A stretch of 40,337 nt of DNA, taken from positions 1-40,337 of the forward strand of contig QQVD01000055.1 of the NCBI GenBank assembly GCA_003388555.1, written 5' to 3'. Below, in pieces: positions 5,529 through 17,818 of the stretch (its first letter is position 1; every line of letters begins with the position of its first letter). The notes beneath the pieces were generated by a model. That model was not told where the DNA came from, made no database searches, and saw only the letters and a list, made by a program, of their open reading frames with translations. This DNA is from Acidobacteriota bacterium. GTDB lineage: Bacteria; Acidobacteriota; Thermoanaerobaculia; Multivoradales; Multivoraceae. Made by a program: the position numbers and the translations under genes.

Positions 5529-7057
5529 ATGGGGATCGGGTGGAATCGACTCAGGCTCGCTCGCCTCGGAGCGCTGGGAGCCCTGGTGCTCACCGGGTCG
5601 TCCAGCGCTCTGGCAGCCGATCTGACGATCGTCGTGACGTCGATCGCGGACGAGGCTTCCGACGTGAACGATCTCTGCACATTGCGCGAGGCGCTCTCGA
5701 CGGTCAACAGCCTCGTCCAGGTGGACAGCTGCGGCCCCGGCGCCGCGGGATCGCCGCTGCCGGTGGGTCCGCTCGACGGGCTGACGATCCAGATCCCCGC
5801 CGGGACCTACGTGCTCGGCGTGCCGGGCACGAGCGAGGACTTGAACGCCTCGGGCGACCTCGACGTGCGCCGGACCGTCACGATCTCGGGCGCAGGCATC
5901 GACCAGACGGTGATCGACGGGGCGCAGAACGACCGGGTGCTCGAGGTGCACTCCGTCACCTCGCTGCTAGGCCGGCCCGTGGTGTTGCGCGGCCTGACGT
6001 TGCGCAGTGGGCGCCCGCCCATCGAGCAGAACGGCGGTTGCCTCCGCAGCAAGAGCAGCCTGCTACTGCTCGAGAGGACGAGGATCGCCGAGTGCGACAC
6101 GCCCGAACCTGTGTTCGGCGGTTTCGGCGGCCTCGGTGGCGGTATCTCGATCGAGGGCGGTGCGGTGACGATCCGCCGTAGCGAGATCGTCGACAACACC
6201 GCCTTCCAGGGCAGCGGCGGCGGCATCTTGGTGGCGGAGTCCGCCGCGGTCGACATCGTCGACTCGACGATCGCCCGCAACAGGGCGCTGATCCAGAACG
6301 GCTTCGTGTCGGGAGGAGGCCTCAGCAACTTCGACGGCACCGTCAACATCCTCGGCTCCGCCGTGATCGACAACGAGGTCACCGGTTCGGGAGGGGGTCT
6401 CGCCAACGGCGGCATCTTGGCGCGGACGATGAACGTGATGAACAGCACCATCGCGCGCAACAGCGCCACCGGCGGTGGCGGCGGCATCAACAACACCCGC
6501 GATCTCTCGCTGACCAACGTGACGATCACCGAGAACGTCGCCGACTCGAACGGAGACGACGACGGAGACGGCGGTGGCCTCCGGGTGTCGGCGAGCGGGT
6601 TCGCCAGCGCCGTCCTCAAGGCCAACGTGATCGCCTGGAACCAGGACGATTCACCCGTCGGTTCGACCTCGATCCGACCCGATGTCTCGGGCACGGTGAA
6701 CTCGGCGGGTTTCAACATCGTGCTCGATGGCGAGGGCCTGAGCGGCATCGTCGACGGCGTGCTGAGTGACCGCGTCGGCGTCGATCCGCTGCTCGACCTG
6801 CCGACCGGCTCGCCCGAGCACTACCCATTGCTCCCCGGCAGCGTCGCCATCGACCAGATTCCCCGCCCCGTCTGCGTCGCGGTCAGCACCGGCGCCAACA
6901 CGCTGTGGAGGCCGGTACCGGCGTCCAGACCGATCAGCGCGGAGTCGGCCGCGGCACCTTCTGCGAGATCGGCGCCTTCGAGGATCGCACGCCCGAAATC
7001 CTCGTCGACGGCTGGGAGTCGGGCGACAACTCGGCCTGGTCACAGACCGTCCCCTGA
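5529..7057 (+). CDS. Exported CSLREA-domain right-handed beta-helix protein, frameshifted near its 3' end
   Basis: Start ATG 5529 has GGAGGTG 7 nt upstream and a signal peptide ending near ALA-AD (about residue 28). Residues 29-60 carry the CSLREA-type motif (VNDLCTLREAL). Then come parallel beta-helix coils rich in GGG and Asn: TVTISGAGID, VVLRGLTLRSG, GGGISIEGG, DSTIARN, NVTITENVADS. Compared with its downstream paralogue, one base is missing after 6910 (TGGAG-GCC here, TGGAGC-GCC there). Uncorrected, the frame drifts into Arg/Pro/Ser-rich sequence and stops at 7238. With the base restored it continues WSAGTGVQ, RGTFCEIGAFEDRTPEI and ends ILVDGWESGD-NSAWSQTVP at 7057, matching the paralogue. 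So this is either a recent inactivating or tail-removing mutation or a sequencing error. Function: surface or secreted beta-helix protein, ligand unknown. Confidence 0.8.
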
Positions 7058-7289
7058 CTCTCCGGCCTGGCTGCTGCAGTCCCGACCCTGCTCCGTCCAA
7101 GCCGACAAGCGGCCCTGGCCCCCGGGAGCGTCTGACCGGGTCGAGCGGCTCCGTGCGTGCTGCGCTCCCGTAGCGGCGTGGGCCGGGTGCGTTGCGCGTG
7201 ACGGCTGGAGGCCCCCTGCCGCGTCTGTCGGGAGTTAGGGGCAGCGTGGCTTGCGCCGCCGCGGTTTCCGAACAGCTCGGAGGTCAGGG

Positions 7290-8819
7290 ATGGGAACGGT
7301 CGATCGAAGGGCGCTGGGCTTCGACAGACGGGGCCTCTTGCCCTGGTTGGTGGCGGGACTCCTGGCGGCGGGCGCCGCTGATGCCGCCGACCTGACGATC
7401 GCCGTCACCTGGACCGGCGACGTGGGCATGTTCGGCGACGGGCTCTGCTCCCTGCGCGAGGCGATCGAGTCGGCGAACGACCTGGTGCAGGAGGACTCGT
7501 GCGGTCCGGGCGAGCACGGCGATCCGCTGCCCGTCGTCGGAGACGACCGGATCACGATCGACGTCCCGGCCGGGATCTACGAGCTCGAGCTGGCGGGAGC
7601 CGACGAGGACCTCAACGTCACCGGGGATCTCGACCTGCACCGCATCGTCACGCTCCAGGGGGCCGGTCTCGGCGTCACGGTGATCGACGGGATGCAGCTC
7701 GACCGCGTGCTCGAGCTGCACGGTCTCTTCTCGTTCTCCGATCGGGCTGTGATTCGCGACCTCTCTCTGCGCGGTGGGCGCCCGCCCGCTGAGCAGGACG
7801 GGGGTTGCCTGCGCAGCCTGAACAGTCAGCTCCTGCTCGACCGGGTCGAGGTCGCGGAGTGCGAGACGCCCGATCCGGGCGTCGGCGGCCTGTTCGGGGG
7901 CAGTGGTGGCGGGCTCGCGATCGAAGGCGGTGCGGTCGAGATCCGTCGTTCCGAGATCGTCGACAACACCACGTTCAAAGCCAGCGGTGGTGGTATCTGG
8001 GTCGTCGATGCGACGGTGGACGTCGTCCGGACGACGATCGCGCGCAACCTCGCGACGATCCCGAACGGCACCGTCTCCGGGGGCGGGCTGGCGAACCTGA
8101 GCGGCACCGTGAACGTGCACGCCAGCGCCGTGCTCGACAACGAGGTGACCGGGCAGGGTGGCGGCCTGTTCAACTTCACGTTCGGCGAGAAGACCCTGAA
8201 CGTGATGAACACCACGGTCGCGCGCAATCGGGCGACCGGCAGCGGCGGCGGCATCCGCTCGTACGGCGACCTGTCGCTCACCCACGTGACGATCACCGAG
8301 AACGTCGCCGATTCCGACGGGGAGGGCAACGGTCAGGGTGGCGGCGTGAGGCTCGGTGGTCAGTCCAACACCGTAATCAAGGGTTCGATCGTGGCCTGGA
8401 ACGAGGACCACTCACCGCCGCCGTCGACGACGATCTTCCCCGACATCTCGGGCACGGTGACCTCGGCCGGCTTCAACATCGTGCTCGACGGGGCGGGTCT
8501 CGTCGGCATCGTCGACGGAGTGCTCGGCGACAGCGTCGGCGTCGATCCGCTGCTCGATCTGCCCACCGGCACGCCGGAGTACTTTCCCCTCTTGCCGGCG
8601 AGCACGGCCATCGATCAGATCCCGAGGCTGGCCTGCGTCGCCGTGAGCTATGGCGCCAATACGTTGTGGAGCGCCGGCACCGGGGTCCAGCTGGACCAGC
8701 GCGGCGTCGGTCGCGGCACCCTGTGCGAGATCGGAGCGTTCGAGGATCGCACGCCGGAGATCTTCGAGGACGACTGGGAGGCCGGCGATCTGTCTGCCTG
8801 GTCCCTGGCCGTTCCCTGA
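7290..8819 (+). CDS. Exported CSLREA-domain right-handed beta-helix protein (intact paralogue)
   Basis: 509 residues from ATG 7290, which has GGAGGT 6 nt upstream; the frame is open back to a TTG at 7251, but that start has no RBS and would add a basic extension before the signal peptide. Signal peptide: WLVAGLLAAGAADA with cleavage before ADLTIAVTW. CSLREA motif at residues 48-55 (GLCSLREAI). The beta-helix coils closely parallel the upstream gene: VIDGMQLDRVLEL, GGGLAIEGGAVEIRRSEIVDN, TTIARN, HVTITENVADSDG, SGTVTSAGFNIVLDG. It ends IFEDDWEAGD-LSAWSLAVP, one of four proteins here with this tail. The two genes are clearly a tandem duplication with about 230 bp between them. Family members are commonly large cell-surface proteins; no catalytic residues can be assigned. 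Confidence 0.85.
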   Translation: MGTVDRRALGFDRRGLLPWLVAGLLAAGAADAADLTIAVTWTGDVGMFGDGLCSLREAIESANDLVQEDSCGPGEHGDPLPVVGDDRITIDVPAGIYELELAGADEDLNVTGDLDLHRIVTLQGAGLGVTVIDGMQLDRVLELHGLFSFSDRAVIRDLSLRGGRPPAEQDGGCLRSLNSQLLLDRVEVAECETPDPGVGGLFGGSGGGLAIEGGAVEIRRSEIVDNTTFKASGGGIWVVDATVDVVRTTIARNLATIPNGTVSGGGLANLSGTVNVHASAVLDNEVTGQGGGLFNFTFGEKTLNVMNTTVARNRATGSGGGIRSYGDLSLTHVTITENVADSDGEGNGQGGGVRLGGQSNTVIKGSIVAWNEDHSPPPSTTIFPDISGTVTSAGFNIVLDGAGLVGIVDGVLGDSVGVDPLLDLPTGTPEYFPLLPASTAIDQIPRLACVAVSYGANTLWSAGTGVQLDQRGVGRGTLCEIGAFEDRTPEIFEDDWEAGDLSAWSLAVP

Positions 8820-9070
8820 GCCTCGTGACGCGAGCTTCGGGAGGCGTAGGGCTCCAGCACTTCCGGATCCGCGACGGACCAGGACGGAGTCGTCGCCATG
8901 GGTGAGGATCGATAGGGACTCGAGGGCGTCCCGGCCGTCGGTCGTTGCGACGAGTCGGCGCTCTGCAGCGGCGCGTCTCGTGTCCTGCTCGGTCGGTTGG
9001 CGTCCGCTCGATCCTGCTAGTTTCGGCTGCCGCCCGTCGGGCGCTCTTTGATGGCAGGAAGAGGAGAGCC

Positions 9071-11563
9071 GTGATCAGCCGAGAGACCCCCCGTGCGGCC
9101 AGTGCGGCCCGCTTCTCGTTCCTAGCCGCTGCGATCCTCGTCGGCGTCTTCTCGTCCACAGGTGAGGCGCATCCCAGCGGCAATCACGACTGGATCGGCT
9201 TCCTCGGGCCCGAGGGCGACGGAAGCGTCGCCAGTGGCCACGAAGAGCCGGCCGCCGGTCTCTCGCCGCGATGGCAGATGGCGATCGGCAGCGGCTACTC
9301 GGGCATCGTGGTGGCCGATGGCACGCTGGTGACCTGCGCGTCCGAGGGCGAGCACGACGTCGTCCTGGCGCTCGACACCGCCGACGGCAGCCGCCGTTGG
9401 GCCGTCGAGCTCGGCGAGGCGATGATCGGCCACGGCGGCTCGCTCGACGGAGCCATCGCGACGCCGGCTCTGGCCGACGGCACCGTCTACGTCTTCGGGC
9501 CCTACGGCGACTTCGTGGCGATCGAGGTGGCGAGCGGCAGGGAGATCTGGCGCCGCGATCTCGCCACCGAGGACGCCGTGGTGCCCTACTACGGTTTCGG
9601 CTCGTCGCCGCTGGTGGTCGGCGAGCTGGTGGTGGTGCAGGTCGGCGGCGAAGCCGGTGCGGTGGTTGCTCTCGAGCGCTCCACCGGCGAGGTCGCCTGG
9701 CGATCGTTCGCCGGCGTCATCGAGGCGCAGTCGCCGAAGCTGATCGAAGTCGACGGCAGGTCGCAGCTCGTCGTCGCCACCAACGAGGTGGTGGCGGGCC
9801 TCGACCCTGAGGAGGGAACGCTGCTCTGGCGCTGGCCGTTCACCGCCCAGGACGCGCAGACCCTGACCACGTCCCCGCTGGGCGTCGGCGGCGGCAGGAT
9901 CTTCTTCACCGCGGCGCCGAACCGTGGCGTCCTGCTCGATCCCACGGCCGGCGCCTCACGCCAGGTGGACGGAGTCTCCGAGCCAGCGGTTCTCTGGGAG
10001 GCCAACGTGCTCACCCGCACCTACAGCCCCGCCGTGGTGGTCGGAGATCAGCTCGTCGGCTACACCTCGCGGTTCCTCGGCGGGTACTCGGTGGCCACCG
10101 GCGAGATGCTGTGGCGCTCGCGCGAGCCCGGTGACGGCTTCCTCATCGCCGTCGACGAGCAGCTCGTGGTGATCACCAAGGAGGGCTCGCTGCACCTGGC
10201 CGATCTCGCGGGCCCTGGCGGCGGCTGGCGGGAGATCGCCAGCGAGCAGCTCTTCGACGACATCGTCTGGACCGTGCCGAGCTACCACGACGACGCTCTC
10301 TACGTGCGCAGCATGACCGAGATCGCGCGCGTCGATCTCGTGCGCGCCGACGCGGGCGCGGCGCCGGCCGCGGCGGACGAGATCCGCGTCACCGAAGCGG
10401 CGACGGACGTCGAGCTGCCGGGTCGCTTGCGCACCCTGCTCGAAGGTGATCCTGCGCAACTCGGAAGCCGAGTCGACGAGCTCCTGGCGGAGGTCGAGAC
10501 GCCGATCCTCGATGGCGAACGGGCGCTCTTCCTCTGGCGCGGCGAGGCCCGCGACGTCGGCATCGCCGGCGACTTCCTCGGCATGCGCGTCGAGGGCGCC
10601 TTCCGTCGCCTCGACGGCACCGACCTCTGGTGGTACCAGACCGAGGTGGCACCGCGGCTGCAGTACACCTACATCCTCTACGTCGACTACGAGCCGACGC
10701 TCGACCCGCTGAATCCCAGGGTCGAGCTGAGCTCGGTGATGGGCCGGGACGCCAACTGGGTCCGCGGTGAGCCGGTCGAGATGTCCTACTTCGCGATGCC
10801 CGACTGGCCCGGACCGCCAGCTCACCTGCGCTCTGACGCACCGGTGCCGGAGCGTCGTGGTCGTCTCGCCCAGCTCGCCGTCGAGATCCCGGAAGAGATG
10901 CTCGAGGAAGCTCCGGAATTCCTCCGCGAGGAGCTGCGCAGGCCTTTCGACGTCTGGCTGCCGCCGAGCTACGACGAAACCGATCGCCGCTATCCGACGC
11001 TCTACGTCTACGAATGGACCGGCGCGCGACATCCTGGGGCCGGGCGTTGGATCGAGACGCTCGATGCCACGGCCGGCAGGGCGTACCGCGAGCCGATCGT
11101 GGTCTTCATGAAGCGGCTGCCGCGGGAGTTCCTGATGGCGGAGCTCGTCGCCGCGGTGGATCGCCAGTTCCGCACCGTCGCCGACCGCGAGGCTCGCGCC
11201 ACGATCGGCTGGGCCTTCGCCGGTCTCGAAGCAGTCTCGGTCGCTGGTCGTCACGCCGATCTCTTCGCCAGGCTGGGGGTGCAGAGCCAGCACGGATTCT
11301 CGGACGACATCGTCGCCCTCACCGAGTCGGTGCCGGCTGCTTCCGCTGAGCGTCCCTTCACCGCCTACCTCGACTGGGGCAGCCTCGACACCCGCAGCCC
11401 CAGCGAGGGGTGGGACATGGCGGATGTGGCGCGCGGCGTCTACGAGGGGCTGGCGGCCAAGGGCGTTCGCGTCTCGGGTGGCGAGGTCGAAGCGACCAGC
11501 GACTGGAAGAGCTGGCGCAACCGCACCCATCTGATGCTCGCCGCGCTGTTCCCGCTCGAGTAG
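9071..11563 (+). CDS. Exported PQQ-type beta-propeller fused to an inactive esterase-like alpha/beta-hydrolase domain
   Basis: Start GTG 9071, with GAGGAG just upstream and a signal peptide immediately after (AARFSFLAAAILVGVFSSTGEA); 830 residues. Residues 35-450 are a PrQQC/PQQ-like propeller (ALDTADGSRRWAVEL, ATPALADGTVYVFG, ALERSTGEVAWRS). Residues about 480-590 look like an early-set/CBM48-type beta-sandwich (VGIAGDFLGM, WWYQTEVAPRLQYTYILYVD) as found before Fes-like esterases. Residues 620-830 match the putative-esterase alpha/beta-hydrolase fold (FDVWLPPSYDETDRRYPTLYVY, MAELVAAVDRQFRTV). The nucleophile elbow, usually G-x-S-x-G, reads G-W-A-F-A-G (Ala715 in place of Ser). The usual catalytic His before D-W-x-x-W is Ser810 (TSDWKSW). 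I infer a non-catalytic, probably binding, protein of the periplasm or cell surface. It converges with the DinB-like gene 28 bp downstream. Confidence 0.8.
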   Translation: MISRETPRAASAARFSFLAAAILVGVFSSTGEAHPSGNHDWIGFLGPEGDGSVASGHEEPAAGLSPRWQMAIGSGYSGIVVADGTLVTCASEGEHDVVLALDTADGSRRWAVELGEAMIGHGGSLDGAIATPALADGTVYVFGPYGDFVAIEVASGREIWRRDLATEDAVVPYYGFGSSPLVVGELVVVQVGGEAGAVVALERSTGEVAWRSFAGVIEAQSPKLIEVDGRSQLVVATNEVVAGLDPEEGTLLWRWPFTAQDAQTLTTSPLGVGGGRIFFTAAPNRGVLLDPTAGASRQVDGVSEPAVLWEANVLTRTYSPAVVVGDQLVGYTSRFLGGYSVATGEMLWRSREPGDGFLIAVDEQLVVITKEGSLHLADLAGPGGGWREIASEQLFDDIVWTVPSYHDDALYVRSMTEIARVDLVRADAGAAPAAADEIRVTEAATDVELPGRLRTLLEGDPAQLGSRVDELLAEVETPILDGERALFLWRGEARDVGIAGDFLGMRVEGAFRRLDGTDLWWYQTEVAPRLQYTYILYVDYEPTLDPLNPRVELSSVMGRDANWVRGEPVEMSYFAMPDWPGPPAHLRSDAPVPERRGRLAQLAVEIPEEMLEEAPEFLREELRRPFDVWLPPSYDETDRRYPTLYVYEWTGARHPGAGRWIETLDATAGRAYREPIVVFMKRLPREFLMAELVAAVDRQFRTVADREARATIGWAFAGLEAVSVAGRHADLFARLGVQSQHGFSDDIVALTESVPAASAERPFTAYLDWGSLDTRSPSEGWDMADVARGVYEGLAAKGVRVSGGEVEATSDWKSWRNRTHLMLAALFPLE

Positions 11564-11591
11564 CCGAGGCGCCGTCTCCCCGGGCTTCGGC

Positions 11592-12089
11592 TCAACCTCG
11601 CCGCTGCCGCCACACCTTCCAGGTCAGCGGCCCGGCGACGGAGTCGGGGATGGCGAGGCCGCCGGCCTTCAGCGCCAGCTTGATCTGGCCGTGGTGGTAG
11701 GCCTCGTGGAAGATCAGCAGCTGGATCAGCAGGATCGGGTGGTCGTAGTCGAGGTCGAACGGCTCGCCGCGCTCGCAGCGGCCGCGTACCGCGTCGGCGA
11801 CGCGTCGGGCGCTCTCCTCGAGCTGCGCTGCGATCTGCTCCCGGTCGGCCAGCGCCGCCCACTCCTCGGCCGGCGTCTCGCCGGCGTGCTCGGGCGCGTT
11901 CTCCGCCACCGACACCATGCGTTCGTGGTGCATGTGGGCGAACATCTGACCGACGCTCGGGCTGCTCGGCATCGCCCGTGCCTCGAGGCCGCCCTCCGGC
12001 AGCAGACGTAGCAGGTTGATCAGGACCTGGTTGTTGCGGCGCCAGGAGTCGAGGATCACCTCGAGCAGCTCGGGCGAGTCGGTCGGCAT
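11592..12089 (-). CDS. DinB-family putative metal-dependent protein
   Basis: 165 residues from ATG 12089, chosen because GGAGGA lies 8 nt upstream; the open frame beyond it is Arg/Pro-rich noise. The DinB/YfiT four-helix fold shows in the N-terminal helix (ELLEVILDSWRRNNQVLINLLRLLPE), the MFAHMHHERM segment (His52, His54, His55) and the C-terminal FHEAYHHGQIKLALK (His128, His132, His133). Together these supply the three-histidine metal site of the superfamily. Such proteins include thiol-dependent S-transferases and many uncharacterised enzymes; this is not the polymerase DinB. Last of three leftward genes and probably cytoplasmic. Confidence 0.85.
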   Translation of the reverse strand: MPTDSPELLEVILDSWRRNNQVLINLLRLLPEGGLEARAMPSSPSVGQMFAHMHHERMVSVAENAPEHAGETPAEEWAALADREQIAAQLEESARRVADAVRGRCERGEPFDLDYDHPILLIQLLIFHEAYHHGQIKLALKAGGLAIPDSVAGPLTWKVWRQRRG

Positions 12090-12258
12090 GGTGGAGATCC
12101 TCCTGCAACCGGCGCGGCCGGCGCAACTGCGGAGCGAGGGACCGGGTGCCGAGGCAGGCCAAGCCCTGGTTGGATCCTCCGGTCCGCCCGGTCGCCAGCG
12201 AGGGGCGGAGCCGTCGTGCCCACCTGCCTGTTCGCCCAGCGGCCGGTCGCGCGGCGTC

Positions 12259-12660
12259 TCAGCTCTCGGCGAGCCTCCACACGATGCCGCTGACCAGCAG
12301 CACACCGCCGCGCACCCCGTCGAGCACCAGCACCTGCGCCGACCCGCCGAGACCGTAGGCGCACGCCGCGACGAAGAGCAGCGACAGCGCCGCGAGCAGA
12401 CCGAGGTTGCGGCCGGCGTCGCGCCTCTGCCAGGACCACGCGGCGGCCGCCAGGGTGAATCCGGCGAGCGAGACGATCACCGAGCCGAGCACCGCGACCA
12501 GCAGCTTGACGTCGTCCAGGGTGCCCAGCGCGACACCGAAGCTGGTCATCATCCCTTCGGGATCGACCAGGGTGCGCACGCCGAGCAGACCGGTGAGAGC
12601 GCCGGAGAGGGCGAGGAGGACGGCGAAGACGCGGGCGGCGATCGTGGGGCTGACTGCCAT
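12259..12660 (-). CDS. Small four-helix integral membrane protein, unknown function
   Basis: 133 residues from ATG 12660 with GGGAGA about 10 nt upstream. Four hydrophobic segments cover nearly the whole chain: about 8-30 (VFAVLLALSGALTGLLG), 50-73 (KLLVAVLGSVIVSLAGFTLAAAA), 84-102 (LGLLAALSLLFVAACAYGL) and 108-128. The WSWQRRD loop between helices 2 and 3 is basic. The composition resembles DUF4345-type proteins, but I do not see a diagnostic motif. It lies between the SEC-C gene and the DinB-like gene, 170 bp from the latter, so co-transcription is possible. Confidence 0.7.
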   Translation of the reverse strand: MAVSPTIAARVFAVLLALSGALTGLLGVRTLVDPEGMMTSFGVALGTLDDVKLLVAVLGSVIVSLAGFTLAAAAWSWQRRDAGRNLGLLAALSLLFVAACAYGLGGSAQVLVLDGVRGGVLLVSGIVWRLAES

Positions 12661-12777
12661 CTGGGGCGATCTCCCTTGGTACCCGCTGCGGCTCGAGAAC
12701 GAGGTGACTCGGATCCCGCCGCTGCGGAGGCTCGACTCGTTGCACGGATCGATGCGGCAGCGTAGCAGCCGCTCGAG

Positions 12778-14229
12778 CTAGGTGCCGAGCTCGGCGATCC
12801 GCCTCTCCATCTCCCGGTACAGGAAGGAGAGATCTGCCGCCGGTCGCCGGTCGAGCGCCGCCATGCGCTCCTCGTCGCGTTGGTGCGCACCGATCAACAG
12901 CACGACGTCGCGTCGCAGCTCGCGCAGCTCGAGGGCCTCGCCCGGCGAGACGTCGCAGAGCTCGGGCAGCCGTCGGTCGAAGAAGTCGTGATGCAGGTCG
13001 CGGTAGGCGGACTCCGCGAGATGGGTACGTTGCTCGGGAGTGAGGTGCTCTGCAGCCTCGATGCCGGCCTGCGCGGCGGCGCGGGCGATCCGGTCGGGGT
13101 CCAGGATCGGGTATGCGAGACAGCCGGAGGTCGGATCGGTGATCTCGGCTGCCAGGAATCCGGCGGCCCCGCCGCAGGACCGCTCGAACCACGCCCTGGC
13201 GACCTCGGCCTTGGCGCGCGTGTCGGAGGCGAGGAGCAGCCGATCGGGGTGCCGCGGGTCGGACCTGCAACGGGCCAGGACACGGCGCCGACCGCTGGTG
13301 GAGCTCGGTTCTGCGGTCCACTGCCATCCATGCTCGCGCGACCCCTGCCATCCGACTGCGGCGTCGAACGCCTGTTCGACGCCCCTCCAGTCGGCGATCC
13401 GAAAATGGTGGGTCACGAACTCCATCTCGTCGATCGTGCGCTGGTCGACGAAGGTCGGGAACGGCAGCACGACACTCTCGATCCACGCCTCCCTGGCGAG
13501 GTCGTCGACGAGGCGGAGGGGGTCTTCCGCGCCCACGGAGGCGGCCAGCGCCAGGTAGCCGGAGCGGGAGAGCCCGGCTCGAGTGATCGGCCACATCGCG
13601 GTCGCCCGCCGCTCGCCCTCCGGTCCGCTGGCGATGCGCGTGACCACCAGCTCCTCCACTTCGGGTGCACGACGGATGTCCGGTTCCAGGATCCGCGTGC
13701 TCTCCCCGGTCGACAGGTCCTGCAGCGTGACCGCGACACCTCGTTCGGTCGCAACCACCTCGTAGACCCGCAGCGGAGCGGCGAGCCAGCCGTCGAGCCA
13801 CACCCGCTCTTCCTCGCCGAGCCCGCCGATTCCTATGCTCGGTCCTTGGCTCGAGCGGTCGAGGAGCAGCTCGCGGGCCTTGGCCCTGCCGCGTGGATCG
13901 CCGGTCGGCAGATCCCCCTCGAAGAGGAGACGATCGGCCGCGAGATCCCAGAGCTGCTCACGGTAGGCGGGCTGCTGGTCCAGTCTCTCGTGCAACCACT
14001 CGTCGGTCACTCCGGAGAGCTCGACCGCCAGCCATTCGTCGAGGTGCGCGTCGACCAGATCCTGCTCGACGAGCCACCGTTCGACTCTGTTCTGCAGCCG
14101 CGTGAAGATGCGCCCTCGCTCCTCGATGGCACGAATCCGGGCCGCCTCCTCGCGATCACCAGGGAGGCAGCACTGCTTGTACTTCCTGGCCGATCCGCAG
14201 GGGCAGGGTGCATTGCGCTGGATCTTCAA
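12778..14229 (-). CDS. SEC-C zinc-motif protein with a long unknown extension
   Basis: 483 residues. The N-terminus is a SEC-C/YecA-type zinc motif (CPCGSARKYKQCC at residues 9-21), which in SecA and related proteins binds one Zn ion through Cys-x-Cys and Cys-Cys. The remaining 460 residues are rich in charged helices (RVERWLVEQDLVDAHLDEWLAVELSG, FLAAEITDPTSGCLAYPILDP, AEHLTPEQRTHLAESAYRDLHHDFFDRRL) and match no family I know. The start is TTG 14229: no ATG or GTG precedes the zinc motif, and GGAG lies 8 nt upstream. No signal peptide or membrane segment, so cytoplasmic. First of three leftward genes; the 271-bp divergent space to the next rightward gene probably holds its promoter. Confidence 0.75.
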   Translation of the reverse strand: MKIQRNAPCPCGSARKYKQCCLPGDREEAARIRAIEERGRIFTRLQNRVERWLVEQDLVDAHLDEWLAVELSGVTDEWLHERLDQQPAYREQLWDLAADRLLFEGDLPTGDPRGRAKARELLLDRSSQGPSIGIGGLGEEERVWLDGWLAAPLRVYEVVATERGVAVTLQDLSTGESTRILEPDIRRAPEVEELVVTRIASGPEGERRATAMWPITRAGLSRSGYLALAASVGAEDPLRLVDDLAREAWIESVVLPFPTFVDQRTIDEMEFVTHHFRIADWRGVEQAFDAAVGWQGSREHGWQWTAEPSSTSGRRRVLARCRSDPRHPDRLLLASDTRAKAEVARAWFERSCGGAAGFLAAEITDPTSGCLAYPILDPDRIARAAAQAGIEAAEHLTPEQRTHLAESAYRDLHHDFFDRRLPELCDVSPGEALELRELRRDVVLLIGAHQRDEERMAALDRRPAADLSFLYREMERRIAELGT

Positions 14230-14500
14230 GGTCTGTCTCCGCTGCGTAGAGGTGTCTCACGTACTGGCGCCTTCCATTGACCAGAACGTCGCCGCGCTCT
14301 TCGTGCTGACACGGGATGTGCGACCAGGGTCGACTCTGATGGTGCTGGTGCCACTTCGCCGCTGCAGCCGAGAGGAGCTCGACTCGGAGTGGTACGGTCG
14401 GAGGCGACCGCGTCGGGGGGCCGGTCGAGCGCAGCGAGTCGTCGACCTCACCTCGAGTCGCGCCCCTTGCCGGTCGTGGTAACACCGGGAAGGAGTTCCC

Positions 14501-15217
14501 ATGCCGCACCTTCCGCTCCGTCTCGCCGTCGTCCTCTGTGCCTCGCTGCTCGGGTTCCTCGTGCTCAGCCCGCCAGCGGCCGGCTCGTTCCACCTGATGC
14601 AGATCGAACAGGCGATCGGAGGCATCTGCGGCGACGTCACCGCCCAGGCGGTGCAGCTGAGGATGCGGGCCGCTGGCCAGAACCTGGTCGACAACCGGGC
14701 GATCGACGCTCTCGACGCCAACAGTCAGAACGCTGTCGCGGTGGTCGACTTCGACGCCGACGTCGCCAACGCGGCGCTTGGGGCGCGCATCCTGGTGGCG
14801 ACGCCCGCCTTCGAGGCCGCGACCGGCCTCACCGCCGACTTCGTGGCGAGTCCGATCCCCGCCTCGTACCTGGCCGCCGGCCAGGTCCTGTTCGTCGACG
14901 GGATCAACATCTACTGGTCGCTGTCGTGGGGCGGCGCGGCGTTCCTCGGGGACACCACGGGCCTCGCCACCAACGACGCCGACGGGGACTTCGGGCCGCC
15001 GTGGGATGGAGTGCTGCCGTCCACCAGCGACCGTGCGTTGCTGTTCACCGGGCCCGCCAACGCACTGAGCACGAGCAACAGCGTCGACTACGCACTCACG
15101 GTCGGCTCGGCGGTGTTCACCAACAACGCCGGAGCCTCGGCCCCGGTGCCCGGTTGCGTGTTCGGAGACGGCTTCGAGTCCGCGGACACCAGCCTCTGGT
15201 CCAGCGCTGTGCCCTGA
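14501..15217 (+). CDS. Secreted protein of unknown function with the DGFESxD C-terminal motif
   Basis: 238 residues from ATG 14501 with AAGGAG 6 nt upstream. Signal peptide: LRLAVVLCASLLGFLVLSPPAAG, cleaved before SFHLM. The mature N-terminus (FHLMQIEQAIGGICGDVTAQ, then QLRMRAAGQN) is strikingly regular and looks conserved. The middle is Ala/Gly/Asp-rich with predicted strands (GARILVATPAF, NIYWSLSWGG, RALLFTGP). It ends VFGDGFESAD-TSLWSSAVP, the same tail as three other proteins in this window. No enzyme motif, membrane anchor or lipobox. Function unknown; extracellular or periplasmic by its signal peptide. Confidence 0.75.
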   Translation: MPHLPLRLAVVLCASLLGFLVLSPPAAGSFHLMQIEQAIGGICGDVTAQAVQLRMRAAGQNLVDNRAIDALDANSQNAVAVVDFDADVANAALGARILVATPAFEAATGLTADFVASPIPASYLAAGQVLFVDGINIYWSLSWGGAAFLGDTTGLATNDADGDFGPPWDGVLPSTSDRALLFTGPANALSTSNSVDYALTVGSAVFTNNAGASAPVPGCVFGDGFESADTSLWSSAVP

Positions 15218-15296
15218 GCGAAGCTACTCGCCGAAACACATTCCCGGCGCCGCCGGCTCCGGTCGGCCCCGCGGACGGCACTGGCCGGATCGGCCG

Positions 15297-15428
15297 TCAC
15301 GCGGGGGCGATCTCGTCGCTCTCGTCTTCATCGATGTCTCCCGCTGCCAGAGCGGCGCCCAACTCCTCCGCGGTCGCCGCAGTCGTGACGTCGAGGAACT
15401 GAGTCGCGACGAGCTCGTGGGCGTGCAT
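15297..15428 (-). CDS. Possible 43-residue acidic small protein
   Basis: The leftward frame from ATG 15428 reads MHAHELVATQFLDVT, then TAEELGAALAAGDIDEDES and DEIAPA, stopping with TGA at 15297. Its composition (Ala, Glu, Asp, with an amphipathic helix and an acidic tail) is unlike the Arg-rich noise of the surrounding frames, which is why I list it. There is no clear Shine-Dalgarno sequence (only GGGTGGTCGG upstream). It could equally be the 3' remnant of a decayed gene. Confidence 0.25.
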   Translation of the reverse strand: MHAHELVATQFLDVTTAATAEELGAALAAGDIDEDESDEIAPA

Positions 15429-15635
15429 CCGACCACCCGTCCGGCGCCGTCCCCCAGACCGCCCAGCATCCCGGAACACTGATCGCAAGCCCCGGGCCGG
15501 GCTCGCCGAAGGGCGATCTCGGGGGCCGCCGGGGAGAGATCCTCACACAGACGCGAAGCAGAGGACGGAGCCGCCATCGGCAGCGAGGATCCAGCTAGTG
15601 ACGCGTGGCGCAGCGCCTCGACCCGTCGTGACACG

Positions 15636-15665
15636 TCGCATGAGATGCGACGACGTCTCATGAGA
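15636..15665. promoter_or_regulatory. Two adjacent palindromes, possible operator
   Basis: TCGCAT-GAG-ATGCGA (15636-15650) is a perfect interrupted palindrome. Five bases on is TCTCATGAGA (15656-15665), a perfect 10-bp palindrome sharing the CATGAGA core. Paired dyads of this size about 310 bp upstream of ATG 15977 could be a repressor-binding site. No matching regulator is known, so this is only a candidate. Confidence 0.3.
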
Positions 15666-15976
15666 TCTCGACGTGGCCAGGGTGGTCCACCGGTGGTCGT
15701 CCCGGCGCCGGCGCGGCAGGGCACGCGAGTCGATCTCTGCCTTCGCGCTGCCAGCGCGCTCTCGCAGTCCTGCGCCCGCGCCGACGGCGAGGCTGGCACG
15801 GTGCATGAAGCCAGAGCTCCTTCGAAGCGCCGGGGCTGCGCTCGTCGGGACGCTCCTCGTCCTCTTCTGGATGTGACACGCGACACGTGAGGAGACTGCG
15901 ACTGGCCGGCAACCGGAGGGAGGACTCACGACTCGTGCGGTCTTCGGCGTACGGGCGATGCCGGGAGGAGAGGACG

Positions 15977-17530
15977 ATGAGCGGAGCAAACTCGAGACGA
16001 GACAGCGCCAGGGGCCCAGGTGTGGGGGACGGGCGAAACGGGTCGATGGAGACGGGAGTGCGCGTCCTGATCACGGCATTCGCCGTCGCGACTGTGGCGA
16101 CTGCGATCGGCGCTTCGCCTGGAGAGCCGAGTTCGCCGCAGGGTGAACGCGGGAGTCCGGGGGCGGCGCTCGTCGCGAAGTTCTTCGGCCTCGTCGATCT
16201 CGCCGAGGAGCAGGCCGAGTTGGCAGAGCAGACACAGGCGGCCTACCAGGCGGGCCTCGCCGCGCTTCCCCCGGTGAGCAGCGTGAGCACGGCGATCTAC
16301 GCCGTCGACTCGGAAGCGACGGGCGGCCGCGGCGGCGAGGGCATCCAGCGCAGGCTCGCGGTGCTGGCCGACGACGACATCGACGACGACGATCCGGCCG
16401 AGTCGCTCTACTTCACCAACCTCGACGGCACGCTGTTCGGGCAGCCCGCCCTCGAGCAGGGTGGCCTGGGAACCCCCGACGCGGTGCGCGGGGTGGTCTA
16501 CGCCGAGGACTTCGTCGCGGTGCGGGGCCCCGGGGCGCCTGCCCGCATCGGAGCGATGTTCTTCGACGGCGATGGCAATCCCCTGGCGCCGGTGTCGATC
16601 GAGGGTCTGCCCAGCTTCCTCGATCTCGGCTTCCGGACGCCCCAGCTGCTGATCGACGAACAGGGTCGGGCGACCATCGTCTATTCGCTGTTGCCCGAGG
16701 ATCCCAACCTGCCGCCGCAGGTGCTCGCGCAGCGGGTCGATCCGGTGAGCGGGTCGTTGATCGGCGACGTGATCGTCGTCGCGGAGCCTGCCTACTTCCC
16801 GAGCGCGTCGCTGCTCTCCGACGATGGTGACGCCGCCGTGGTGACCTTCATCTCGCCGCCCAACGTGATCCGTGGGGTGGTGCTCGACCTCAGCGACCCG
16901 GTGCGCGGCGTCGTCGGTGTGAGCTTCCCGGTGAGCACCACCGCCTCGCCGTTCACCCACTACGCGCCGTCGGTCTCCGCCGATCGCGAGTCGGGGCGCT
17001 TCATGGTGGCCTGGGAGAATCTGACCGGAGCTCAGTTCAATCCTGTCGATGTGCTCGGTCGTCGCTTCGGTCCCGATGGCACCCCGCTGGACGCCACCGA
17101 TTTCGTGGTCAACACCGGCACCGACAACGCGCAGAGCCAGGCGACGGTGGCCGCCATCGACGGCCTCGACGCCTTCGCCGTCGCCTGGACGAGCGACGGT
17201 GACAGCAGCAACGATCTGGACCTGTTCCTGCAGGTGTACGACGAGAGCGGCGCCGCGATCTTCGCCGTCGATCAGCCGCTGACCGACCGCGACGACATCC
17301 AGGACCGTCCGTCTCTGCGTTCGATGGGTCAGTTCGACTCCGAGAACCGACCTCTGCTTTCGCTGACCTACCGCGACGTCGCCAACGCCGGCGGCACGCC
17401 GAGGCCCGGGGAGACGGGACTGTCGTACCTGGGATTTGCGATCGAGGGGCTGACCGAGGGCATACCGCCGATCTTCGTGGACGGGTTCGAGTCTGGAGAC
17501 ACCTCGGCGTGGACGGCGTCCACGCCTTAG
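15977..17530 (+). CDS. Secreted protein of unknown function with the DGFESGD C-terminal motif
   Basis: 517 residues from ATG 15977, preceded by GGGAGGAG 8 nt upstream; another in-frame ATG at 16047 lies directly before the hydrophobic stretch and is the alternative start. The signal sequence is METGVRVLITAFAVATVATAIGA. The body has recurring strands reminiscent of a propeller of long repeats: GQPALEQGGLGTPDAVRGVV, ARIGAMFFDGDGNPLAPVSI, VDVLGRRFGPDGTPLDATDF, ATVAAIDGLDAFAVAWTSDGD. The 'W-x-S-DGD ... GRRF-x-DGTP' pattern occurs in secreted proteins from several phyla, but I cannot assign an activity. It ends IFVDGFESGD-TSAWTASTP. The 161-bp repeat downstream begins inside its last codons. Confidence 0.75.
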   Translation: MSGANSRRDSARGPGVGDGRNGSMETGVRVLITAFAVATVATAIGASPGEPSSPQGERGSPGAALVAKFFGLVDLAEEQAELAEQTQAAYQAGLAALPPVSSVSTAIYAVDSEATGGRGGEGIQRRLAVLADDDIDDDDPAESLYFTNLDGTLFGQPALEQGGLGTPDAVRGVVYAEDFVAVRGPGAPARIGAMFFDGDGNPLAPVSIEGLPSFLDLGFRTPQLLIDEQGRATIVYSLLPEDPNLPPQVLAQRVDPVSGSLIGDVIVVAEPAYFPSASLLSDDGDAAVVTFISPPNVIRGVVLDLSDPVRGVVGVSFPVSTTASPFTHYAPSVSADRESGRFMVAWENLTGAQFNPVDVLGRRFGPDGTPLDATDFVVNTGTDNAQSQATVAAIDGLDAFAVAWTSDGDSSNDLDLFLQVYDESGAAIFAVDQPLTDRDDIQDRPSLRSMGQFDSENRPLLSLTYRDVANAGGTPRPGETGLSYLGFAIEGLTEGIPPIFVDGFESGDTSAWTASTP

Positions 17531-17818
17531 GTGACTCCAGACGATCGGCGGTAGCGAGCCCGGTCCCCTGGAGGTGACCGTGCTCGTGCGTCTCGGCTCA
17601 CGTCGTTCGCCTCGGCGTCGCCTTCGGCTGAGAGCTCGGCGTCGCGTCTGTTGCCAGGAGGCCTCCGGCGTGGACGGCGTGCACGACTCAGGTGTCTGCA
17701 GACGATCGGCGGTAGCGAGCCCGGTCCCTCCGGAGGTGACCGTGCTCGTGCGTCTCGGCTCGCGCGTGGCGCTCGCCTCGGCGTCGCGTGTCGGCTGAGA
17801 GGTCAGCGCCGCGTCTGA
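17505..17818. repeat. 161-bp direct duplication covering the gene 3' end and downstream space
   Basis: The segment starting CGGCGTGGACGGCGT at 17505 (the last codons of the preceding gene) recurs from 17666. Long shared blocks follow, including AGACGATCGGCGGTAGCGAG, GGAGGTGACCGTGCTCGTG and CGTCTCGGCTC, then TCGGCTGAGAG. The second copy has small indels, so the offset drifts from 161 to about 167. Shifted by one base, the second copy can still encode a W-T-A segment like the gene's tail, so it is a decayed duplicate of the 3' end. The 17531-17978 interval contains no gene. Confidence 0.7.

Follow-up and report, generated by a model that had tools for sequence, protein, structure and literature searches.

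A short acidic C-terminal tail on many exported-looking proteins of an acidobacterial order: a candidate sorting tag

The window analysed here, a stretch of 40,337 nucleotides from an Acidobacteriota genome, carries four forward-strand genes whose products share a C-terminal tail. The first, a CSLREA-type beta-helix gene (positions 5529 to 7057), is by comparison with a paralog frameshifted, either as a pseudogene or through an assembly error. The shift falls between about 6890 and 6960, as judged by eye against the paralog: the open reading frame (ORF) starting at 5529 reads on, in another frame, as far as 7238. The tail, ILVDGWESGDNSAWSQTVP plus stop (6998 to 7057), sits in a separate frame, where it matches a 21-position tail profile. 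The second gene (7290 to 8819, within the ORF from 7251) encodes a beta-helix, choice-of-anchor Q-like protein, with choice-of-anchor Q and Beta_helix matches slightly under the curated cut-offs; it ends in IFEDDWEAGDLSAWSLAVP plus stop (8760 to 8819). A small, putatively secreted protein (14501 to 15217), without significant match in a family search, ends in VFGDGFESADTSLWSSAVP plus stop (15158 to 15217), and a large one (16046 to 17530, within the ORF from 15887), also without a family match, in IFVDGFESGDTSAWTASTP plus stop (17471 to 17530). The signal-peptide script that calls the small protein secreted also chose the ATG of the second and last genes. Past the last stop, the final part of the tail DNA recurs together with its 3' flank as a degenerate second copy (17666 to 17760; end point by eye). 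An Rfam search of the window returned nothing above threshold.

A preliminary description of this DNA had placed tails ending at 7057, 8819, 15217, and 17530, and all four are present in the sequence. It took the four proteins to be unrelated. The shared tail stands, but the 5529 and 7251–8819 genes are tandem paralogs (73% DNA identity; 62% identity over 456 amino acids), and the independent families in the window therefore number three rather than four. Signal peptides, ascribed to all four, were recognised by script in three and by eye in the 5529 gene; and the tail, said to end eight or nine residues past the second D of the motif, ends nine past it in each of the four, and eight in none.

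Searching the 6.8-Mb genome of origin with the tail profile (E of 10 or better) gave at least 148 matches, a lower bound because 150 of 222 candidates were scored. Among these, 126 end 0 to 3 residues from the stop (in frames longer than 60 residues, or in frames that run off the upstream end of the stretch); 4 end 4 to 15 residues ahead of it; 1 crosses a contig end; 2 contain a stop; and 9 lie in frames of at most 60 residues, mostly copies past a stop. Another three are internal (two, judged by eye, in Rhs-like proteins), and three more lie 142 to 177 residues into the frame, with at least 350 residues following; one of the latter directly follows a signal-peptide-like stretch. These internal and early matches show that C-terminal position, which had been expected always to hold, is strongly preferred but not absolute. 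(Two of the 126, C5:105466 and C8:178489, are copies past the stop of another tail gene.) A slightly different filter passes 127 tails, three of them past-stop copies in one gene: 104 end exactly 16 residues past the first D, and 102 end in Pro, so the rule that Pro is always the last residue does not survive. At the DNA level, a loose pattern finds 112 sites against 14 for its reversed control, and a strict one 112 against 0. Match counts and reversed patterns together rule out chance similarity: a tail of 16 to 20 residues is common to more than 120 proteins of one genome.

The tail bears the marks of selection on protein. Across 104 tails the conserved Ser is written with both TCN and AGY codons, and Gly and Pro with all four of theirs, while F, D, E, and W are kept despite codon change; conserved residues with varied codons point to the protein as the object of selection. 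This also argues against the idea that a DNA or RNA element at gene ends, such as a palindromic repeat, terminator, or recombination site, gave rise to the tail as a by-product. Such an element has some footing in the window's genome, where synonymous codon choice favours hairpins (z from -7 to -13), where 15 of 124 tail genes carry a copy of tail DNA past the stop (some over just 14 to 20 bases), and where similarity connects the 3' flanks of 36 tail genes, in part through general intergenic repeats. However, 58 tails taken from other genomes show no such hairpin effect (z -0.1, with -2.8 only for the shortest piece), and none of 68 has a downstream copy. The hairpin and tandem-copy signals are thus real in this genome but missing from these sampled tails, and an element as the main cause is very improbable.

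Paralogy alone does not account for the shared tail either: compared with the tail removed, 121 tailed proteins form 57 clusters, 41 of them singletons. By a script run on stop-to-stop frames rather than SignalP, signal-peptide-like starts occur in 76 of 115 tailed proteins against 28 of 297 control ORFs with strict settings, and in 97 of 115 against 69 of 297 with relaxed ones; 43 of 85 controls with GC3 above 0.8 pass the relaxed test, which narrows the contrast with likely real genes. Most tailed proteins look exported. Among 59 of 64 chosen representatives whose cargo was typed, there are five choice-of-anchor Q proteins, three subtilases, three trypsin-like proteins, two CSLREA proteins, and one ExeM/NucH nuclease; the 'rhombosortase-dependent' and 'myxosortase-dependent' models of M36 peptidases are each matched once, perhaps by the same protein. 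No NCBIfam model of the tail itself was found among the 25 most shared of 50 families matched by the 59 proteins, the top model covering 5; in 23 proteins with the short form described below, the top shared model covers 2. A search for tail-less homologs among the 297 control ORFs, which come from the sequence stretches retrieved, gave 4 matches, of which one is the frameshifted window gene and another a frame with a stop inside the tail.

Judged by its sequence, the tail is homologous to the opening segment of a concanavalin A (ConA)-like or LamG-like jelly-roll domain, and yet stands alone. It aligns with about the first 20 residues, and in four ConA-like domains compared, I-F-x-D-G-F-E-x-G and W are invariant. 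Those domains continue for roughly 180 further residues, whereas in the tailed proteins the segment is the protein end; a complete domain does not follow the 126 of 148 matches that stop within three residues. A predicted structure of an intact domain has moderate confidence over the body (mean pLDDT 67) and below 50 in the tail segment; a fold search with this model returned ConA-like folds at TM about 0.5, and sequence searches of the PDB gave no useful match. Reading the segment as a first strand is therefore unsupported by the model, whose pLDDT there is below 50. The preliminary description had named, as grounds for rejecting a tag, a first strand of a known domain without positional bias: the homology to a domain start was indeed found, but the positional bias is overwhelming.

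This homology could be taken to mean that a C-terminal ConA-like domain was cut back in many proteins and left the tail as a remnant without function. Remnants would decay, however, and here the end point is identical in 104 of 127 tails, F, D, F, E, and W are conserved under free codon change across 57 clusters, and genus g2, which belongs to the same family, has no match in 21 genomes; we consider a remnant highly unlikely. Equally hard to credit is an assembly tag without export role, which by donor-strand exchange would complete the jelly-roll of a second protein at the surface and so build a layer or matrix. The homology to a first jelly-roll segment and the conserved F, F, and W within a soluble acidic tail would suit it; the low pLDDT of the segment speaks against it.

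The tail is unlike the tripartite C-terminal signals (LPXTG, PEP-CTERM, GlyGly-CTERM, and MYXO-CTERM) in having neither the helix nor the basic end. As the preliminary description had it, a membrane helix and basic terminus are lacking: a TM-like segment occurs in the last 60 residues of 3 of 122 tailed proteins and K or R in the last 6 of 8 of 122, and the last 20 residues have a mean charge of -3.1. As with those signals, many exported families share only the C-terminal region (57 clusters among the 121 proteins). Type IX secretion also uses a soluble C-terminal signal on Sec-exported proteins, but its C-terminal domains are longer and folded. GlyGly-CTERM, whose handler is rhombosortase, is likewise a short C-terminal homology region on signal-peptide proteins of varied families, and differs in its membrane helix and basic end. 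Its cargo overlaps with the tailed cargo (S8, trypsin-like, metallopeptidase, and nuclease; PMC3237569), and it reaches up to thirteen copies per genome (PMC3237569), against more than 100 tails here. MYXO-CTERM, the myxosortase signal, resembles the tail in its dozens of copies per genome over a large lineage, and the myxosortase-dependent M36 peptidase model matches one tailed protein. It differs in its helix, its Arg-rich end, and a Cys that is invariant (PMC11980579), whereas Cys occurs in the last 17 residues of 4 of 122 tailed proteins. The strings 'DGFESGD' and 'FADGFE' were absent from the literature searched, and broader searches listed no description of such a tail.

Within Acidobacteriota, one order has the tail in abundance: the profile is positive in 36 of 60 genomes, the window's own included, 28 of them with at least 20 matches (at most 150 candidates scored per genome). 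Elsewhere in the phylum the tail is rare. In the order, match numbers in most other tag-positive genomes are comparable to those of the window genome, some genomes have one or none (G028, G035, G042, and G059), and genus g2 has none in 21 genomes. The pattern FxDGFE occurs at 32 to 167 sites in ten tag-rich Acidobacteriota against 0 to 3 in 14 g2 genomes. A stop lies within 6 residues in 69 of the best 80 of at least 237 confirmed loci.

A short form, F-x-D-G-F-E, extends to one gammaproteobacterial order, where 129 of 151 genomes are positive, with up to 77 sites against at most 4 for the reversed pattern. At 30 loci there, 24 of 32 sites lie within 7 residues of the stop, and 11 of the 32 terminate in FxDGFE itself; long-form matches in the order are internal in 7 of 26 cases. 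The cultured Marinicella litoralis has one long-form match and 21 sites of the short pattern, counted irrespective of their place in the protein. We infer that the long and short forms are one signal. Tentatively, and with more doubt than confidence, they may constitute a linear, portable C-terminal export signal common to both phyla, which would carry Sec-exported proteins over the outer membrane and be read by an outer-membrane or secretin-linked receptor, without a membrane helix.

What might handle such a signal was sought among known machines. The preliminary description had proposed a sorting, processing, or secretion tag, a reading in keeping with the C-terminal bias, the mostly exported-looking proteins, and the 57 clusters; but the handler gene that it predicted to co-occur with the tag was not found in searches for SprA (PF14349), PF03934, and GspD (TIGR02517). 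Its suggested closeness to type IX secretion found no backing, SprA being matched in 0 of 60 genomes, though the control genomes gave no match either and a positive control is thus lacking. PF03934 proved too unspecific a marker of type II secretion, matching also in Bacillus and Thermotoga. GspD by TIGR02517, above its curated cut-off, is present in 51 of 55 chosen gammaproteobacterial genomes, and in only 1 of 25 chosen Acidobacteriota (G025). The window genome's best match sits after four smaller genes, an order that we take to be pilMNOPQ.

These observations bear on whether the tail is a linear recognition signal of the type II system (or a type IV pilus-like machine in Acidobacteriota), bound by the machine parts that push the protein out. 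Among gammaproteobacteria chosen as extremes (at least 20 sites, or 0 to 1), two GspD genes above cut-off occur in 27 of 28 tag-rich and 7 of 20 tag-poor genomes (Fisher 4.6e-6, clear calls). On the tree, however, the link reduces to five independent contrasts on supported branches (mean 2.1 with, 0.1 against; not significant), the seven tag-poor genomes have two GspD genes without tags, and Acidobacteriota offer the single GspD and the pilMNOPQ-like order just described. By analogy, GlyGly-CTERM proteins of Vibrio are type II cargo, and MYXO-CTERM proteins are predicted to take that route to the surface (PMC11980579, PMC13393428). The association of a second type II system with the tag is suggestive in gammaproteobacteria, not significant after phylogeny, and not seen in Acidobacteriota; direct recognition by the machine seems unlikely.

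Taken together, the tail resembles an address label, not described before, that would direct proteins to export or to a place on the surface, and it is probably a lineage-specific C-terminal sorting tag, with some room left for doubt. Tailed proteins would cross the inner membrane via their signal peptides and then fold, leaving a free tail that a common receptor, located in the periplasm or at the outer membrane, could recognise, most likely by docking it as a beta-strand, before handing the proteins on to the surface or the outside. In gammaproteobacteria, the receptor would perhaps work together with the second type II secretion system.

If this is true, two phyla would share a very abundant sorting signal at the C-terminus that is not of the membrane-helix type and, as far as tested, shows no link to type IX secretion. 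Should the tail prove tied to type II secretion, it would be informative on how that system chooses its cargo, itself an open question. For the little-studied Acidobacteriota, the tail would mark many exported proteins and serve as a handle for finding an export or anchoring machine, with a clean natural contrast at hand: the tag-free genus g2 beside relatives with about 100 tags.

The four window tails, C-terminal segments of 16–20 residues of the D-G-F/W-E-S-G-D type, are present in the sequence and end at 7057, 8819, 15217, and 17530. Their carriers had been taken for four unrelated proteins; the four tails are real, but they represent only three independent families in the window, because the gene starting at 5529, which contains a frameshift, is a tandem paralog of its neighbor (beta-helix genes, 5529–7057 and 7290–8819). 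A profile built from these tails matched the window's own genome (G000) at 148 sites, a lower bound because 150 of 222 candidates were scored. The sequence around all 148 was fetched, and each was read in frame. A stop codon follows 0–3 residues after the tail in 126 (two of these are copies behind another tail gene), and four further tails end within 15 residues of the stop. The remaining matches are internal (three), lie 142–177 residues into a frame that continues for at least 350 more (three), sit at a contig end (one) or in frames no longer than 60 aa (nine), or contain a stop (two). Tail-like segments lie inside two similar proteins, Rhs-like by eye (L039; G000:C36:46760 and 49177), and far from the protein end at three further loci: L103 (C11:178306), L064 (C7:48893), and L072 (G000:C11:164342), the last directly after a signal-peptide-like stretch.

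A similar filter retained 127 tails (124 after removal of three copies that follow the stop in one gene). The span from the first D to the end is 16 residues long in 104 of the 127, and among the 119 tails long enough to compare, the conserved residues are W (all 119), D(0) (118), F(−2) (117), and E(3) (115). The preliminary description had the tail C-terminal and always ending in Pro. Both hold for the majority: three matches are internal and three far from the end, and Pro is the last residue in 102 of 127 tails but not in the other 25. Selection acts on the protein sequence of the tail: across the 104 fixed-length tails, all four codons are used for Gly and for Pro, and both TCN and AGY codons for Ser at position 4, with the amino acids themselves conserved.

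DNA-level signals were also evaluated. Within the window genome, hairpins formed by tail codons and the 3′ flank exceed those in codon shuffles (z −7 to −13), with synonymous codons favoring pairing both within the tail and with bases after the stop (104 tails). Tail DNA is also duplicated downstream of the stop in 15 of 124 tail genes, in some cases over only 14–20 bases. Among 58 tails of other genomes the hairpin excess is absent (z −0.1; −2.8 for the shortest piece), and downstream copies number 0 of 68; both signals are therefore a local feature of the window genome. Some window-genome copies form units of about 100 bp, in which the last 43 bases of the tail gene are joined to about 56 bases of flank; these units recur one to three times and are often identical (L033, L046, L058, L083, L097). 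A degenerate, longer-spaced copy lies within window positions 17531–17760.

The tailed proteins are diverse. Once the last 25 residues are trimmed off, 121 of them group into 57 clusters, 41 of which are singletons (BLASTP, E 1e-5, 60 aa or more). Scanning 59 of 64 chosen representatives identified choice-of-anchor Q (five), subtilases, trypsin-like proteases, PPC, sortilin, and BNR (three each), CSLREA (two), FG-GAP, Calx-beta, and lactonase propellers (two each), one ExeM/NucH nuclease, and M36 models labelled rhombosortase- and myxosortase-dependent (one each, perhaps one protein). No NCBIfam model of the tail itself appeared, and the commonest shared model matches 5 of 59 (top 25 of 50 families). 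Signal peptides had been ascribed to all four carriers; signal-peptide-like starts are enriched by a scripted test (not SignalP) without being universal: 76 of 115 tailed proteins versus 28 of 297 control ORFs under strict settings, and 97 of 115 versus 69 of 297 under relaxed ones, which 43 of 85 control ORFs with GC3 above 0.8 also pass. The reported lack of a membrane helix or basic end is borne out, with TM-like stretches in 3 and basic ends in 8 of 122 tails.

An 89-row tail alignment (E 0.001 or better, up to 150 matches scored per genome) detected the tail in 36 of 60 genomes, the window's own included: 28 with at least 20 matches, 8 with 1–17, and 24 with none. All 21 genomes searched from g2, a genus in the window's own family, are among the tail-free ones. 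Across the phylum at large, 19 of 396 genomes match; nine of the window's order plus G449 (same class) reach 22 scored per genome, and the other nine have one each. An independent pattern, the short form FxDGFE, gives the same contrast: 32–167 sites in these ten tag-rich genomes versus 0–3 in 14 g2 genomes, and at most 12 per genome elsewhere. Among the best 80 of 237 confirmed named matches, most come from Acidobacteriota MAGs, many labelled Thermoanaerobaculia, and 69 have a stop within 6 aa. Outliers are Acanthopleuribacter and Sulfidibacter (two each) and Marinicella, a Kangiella MAG, and an Actinomycetota MAG (one each).

In Marinicella's order, which we take to be Xanthomonadales, the long profile (E 0.01) gives 26 matches in 21 of 151 genomes: 17 within 5 aa of the stop, one 8 aa before it, one with a stop inside, and seven internal. 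FxDGFE is found in 129 of the 151, at up to 77 sites each, against at most four per genome for the reversed pattern. Of 32 such sites at 30 loci, 24 are no more than 7 aa from the stop (11 of the 24 end in FxDGFE itself), four lie 10–17 aa before it, and four further in. Cargo types among 23 of these proteins include subtilase, M28, M64, kelch, LRR, and cadherin.

A Holophagae MAG, Acanthopleuribacter pedis, and an Anaerolineae MAG encode domains of roughly 200 residues that open with the tail segment, and 165–227 residues follow it in five of the seven internal matches of Marinicella's order. The predicted domain body resembles ConA-like folds (the tail segment itself has pLDDT below 50); Pfam gave Laminin_G_3 in one intact-domain protein, below its cut-off. 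In L140 and L143, a similar segment, dockerin-like by eye, ends both proteins after an intact jelly-roll.

What might read the tail? Pfam matches in eight of ten neighboring ORFs scanned (window 1–40337) suggested no candidate: S41 peptidase, sortilin/BNR, SEC-C, GGDEF, kinase with TPR, TonB-type receptor, LytTR regulator, and amidohydrolase. SprA of the T9SS was found in 0 of 60 genomes, in a search without a positive control. For the T2SS, GspD copies over the TIGR02517 cut-off were counted by hand in a chosen set of 80 genomes, comprising 25 Acidobacteriota and 55 gammaproteobacteria (32 tag-rich, 23 tag-poor). Two copies are present in 27 of 28 tag-rich versus 7 of 20 tag-poor gammaproteobacteria (Fisher 4.6e-6; tag-rich G580 has one), but the association is not significant on a tree, with seven tag-state changes and five independent contrasts on supported branches. 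The tree has 49 usable rows, 29 tag-rich (including G610, which lacks a clear count) and 20 tag-poor; outside it are tag-rich G575 (none over cut-off), G585, and G514 (both fragmentary), and tag-poor G463, G564, and G573 (none over cut-off). Genomes of Marinicella's order carry another T2SS-like operon in which D-E-F lie side by side (L292, L293, L295, L298, L300, L301). Only 1 of 25 Acidobacteriota has GspD over cut-off. The window genome's best match sits after four smaller genes, the arrangement of pilMNOPQ. Best matches in four g2 genomes are weaker (1e-40 to 1e-42) than in the other Acidobacteriota of the set (1e-46 or better), yet those of tag-free G035, G042, and G059 are as good as in tag-rich genomes. 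The T2SS is thus a lead confined to the gammaproteobacterial lineage.

No description of such a tail was found in the literature and NCBIfam searches. The tail is a real, abundant C-terminal tag, undescribed as far as the papers and NCBIfam searched extend. Its most likely role is in sorting, by a putative reading machine.
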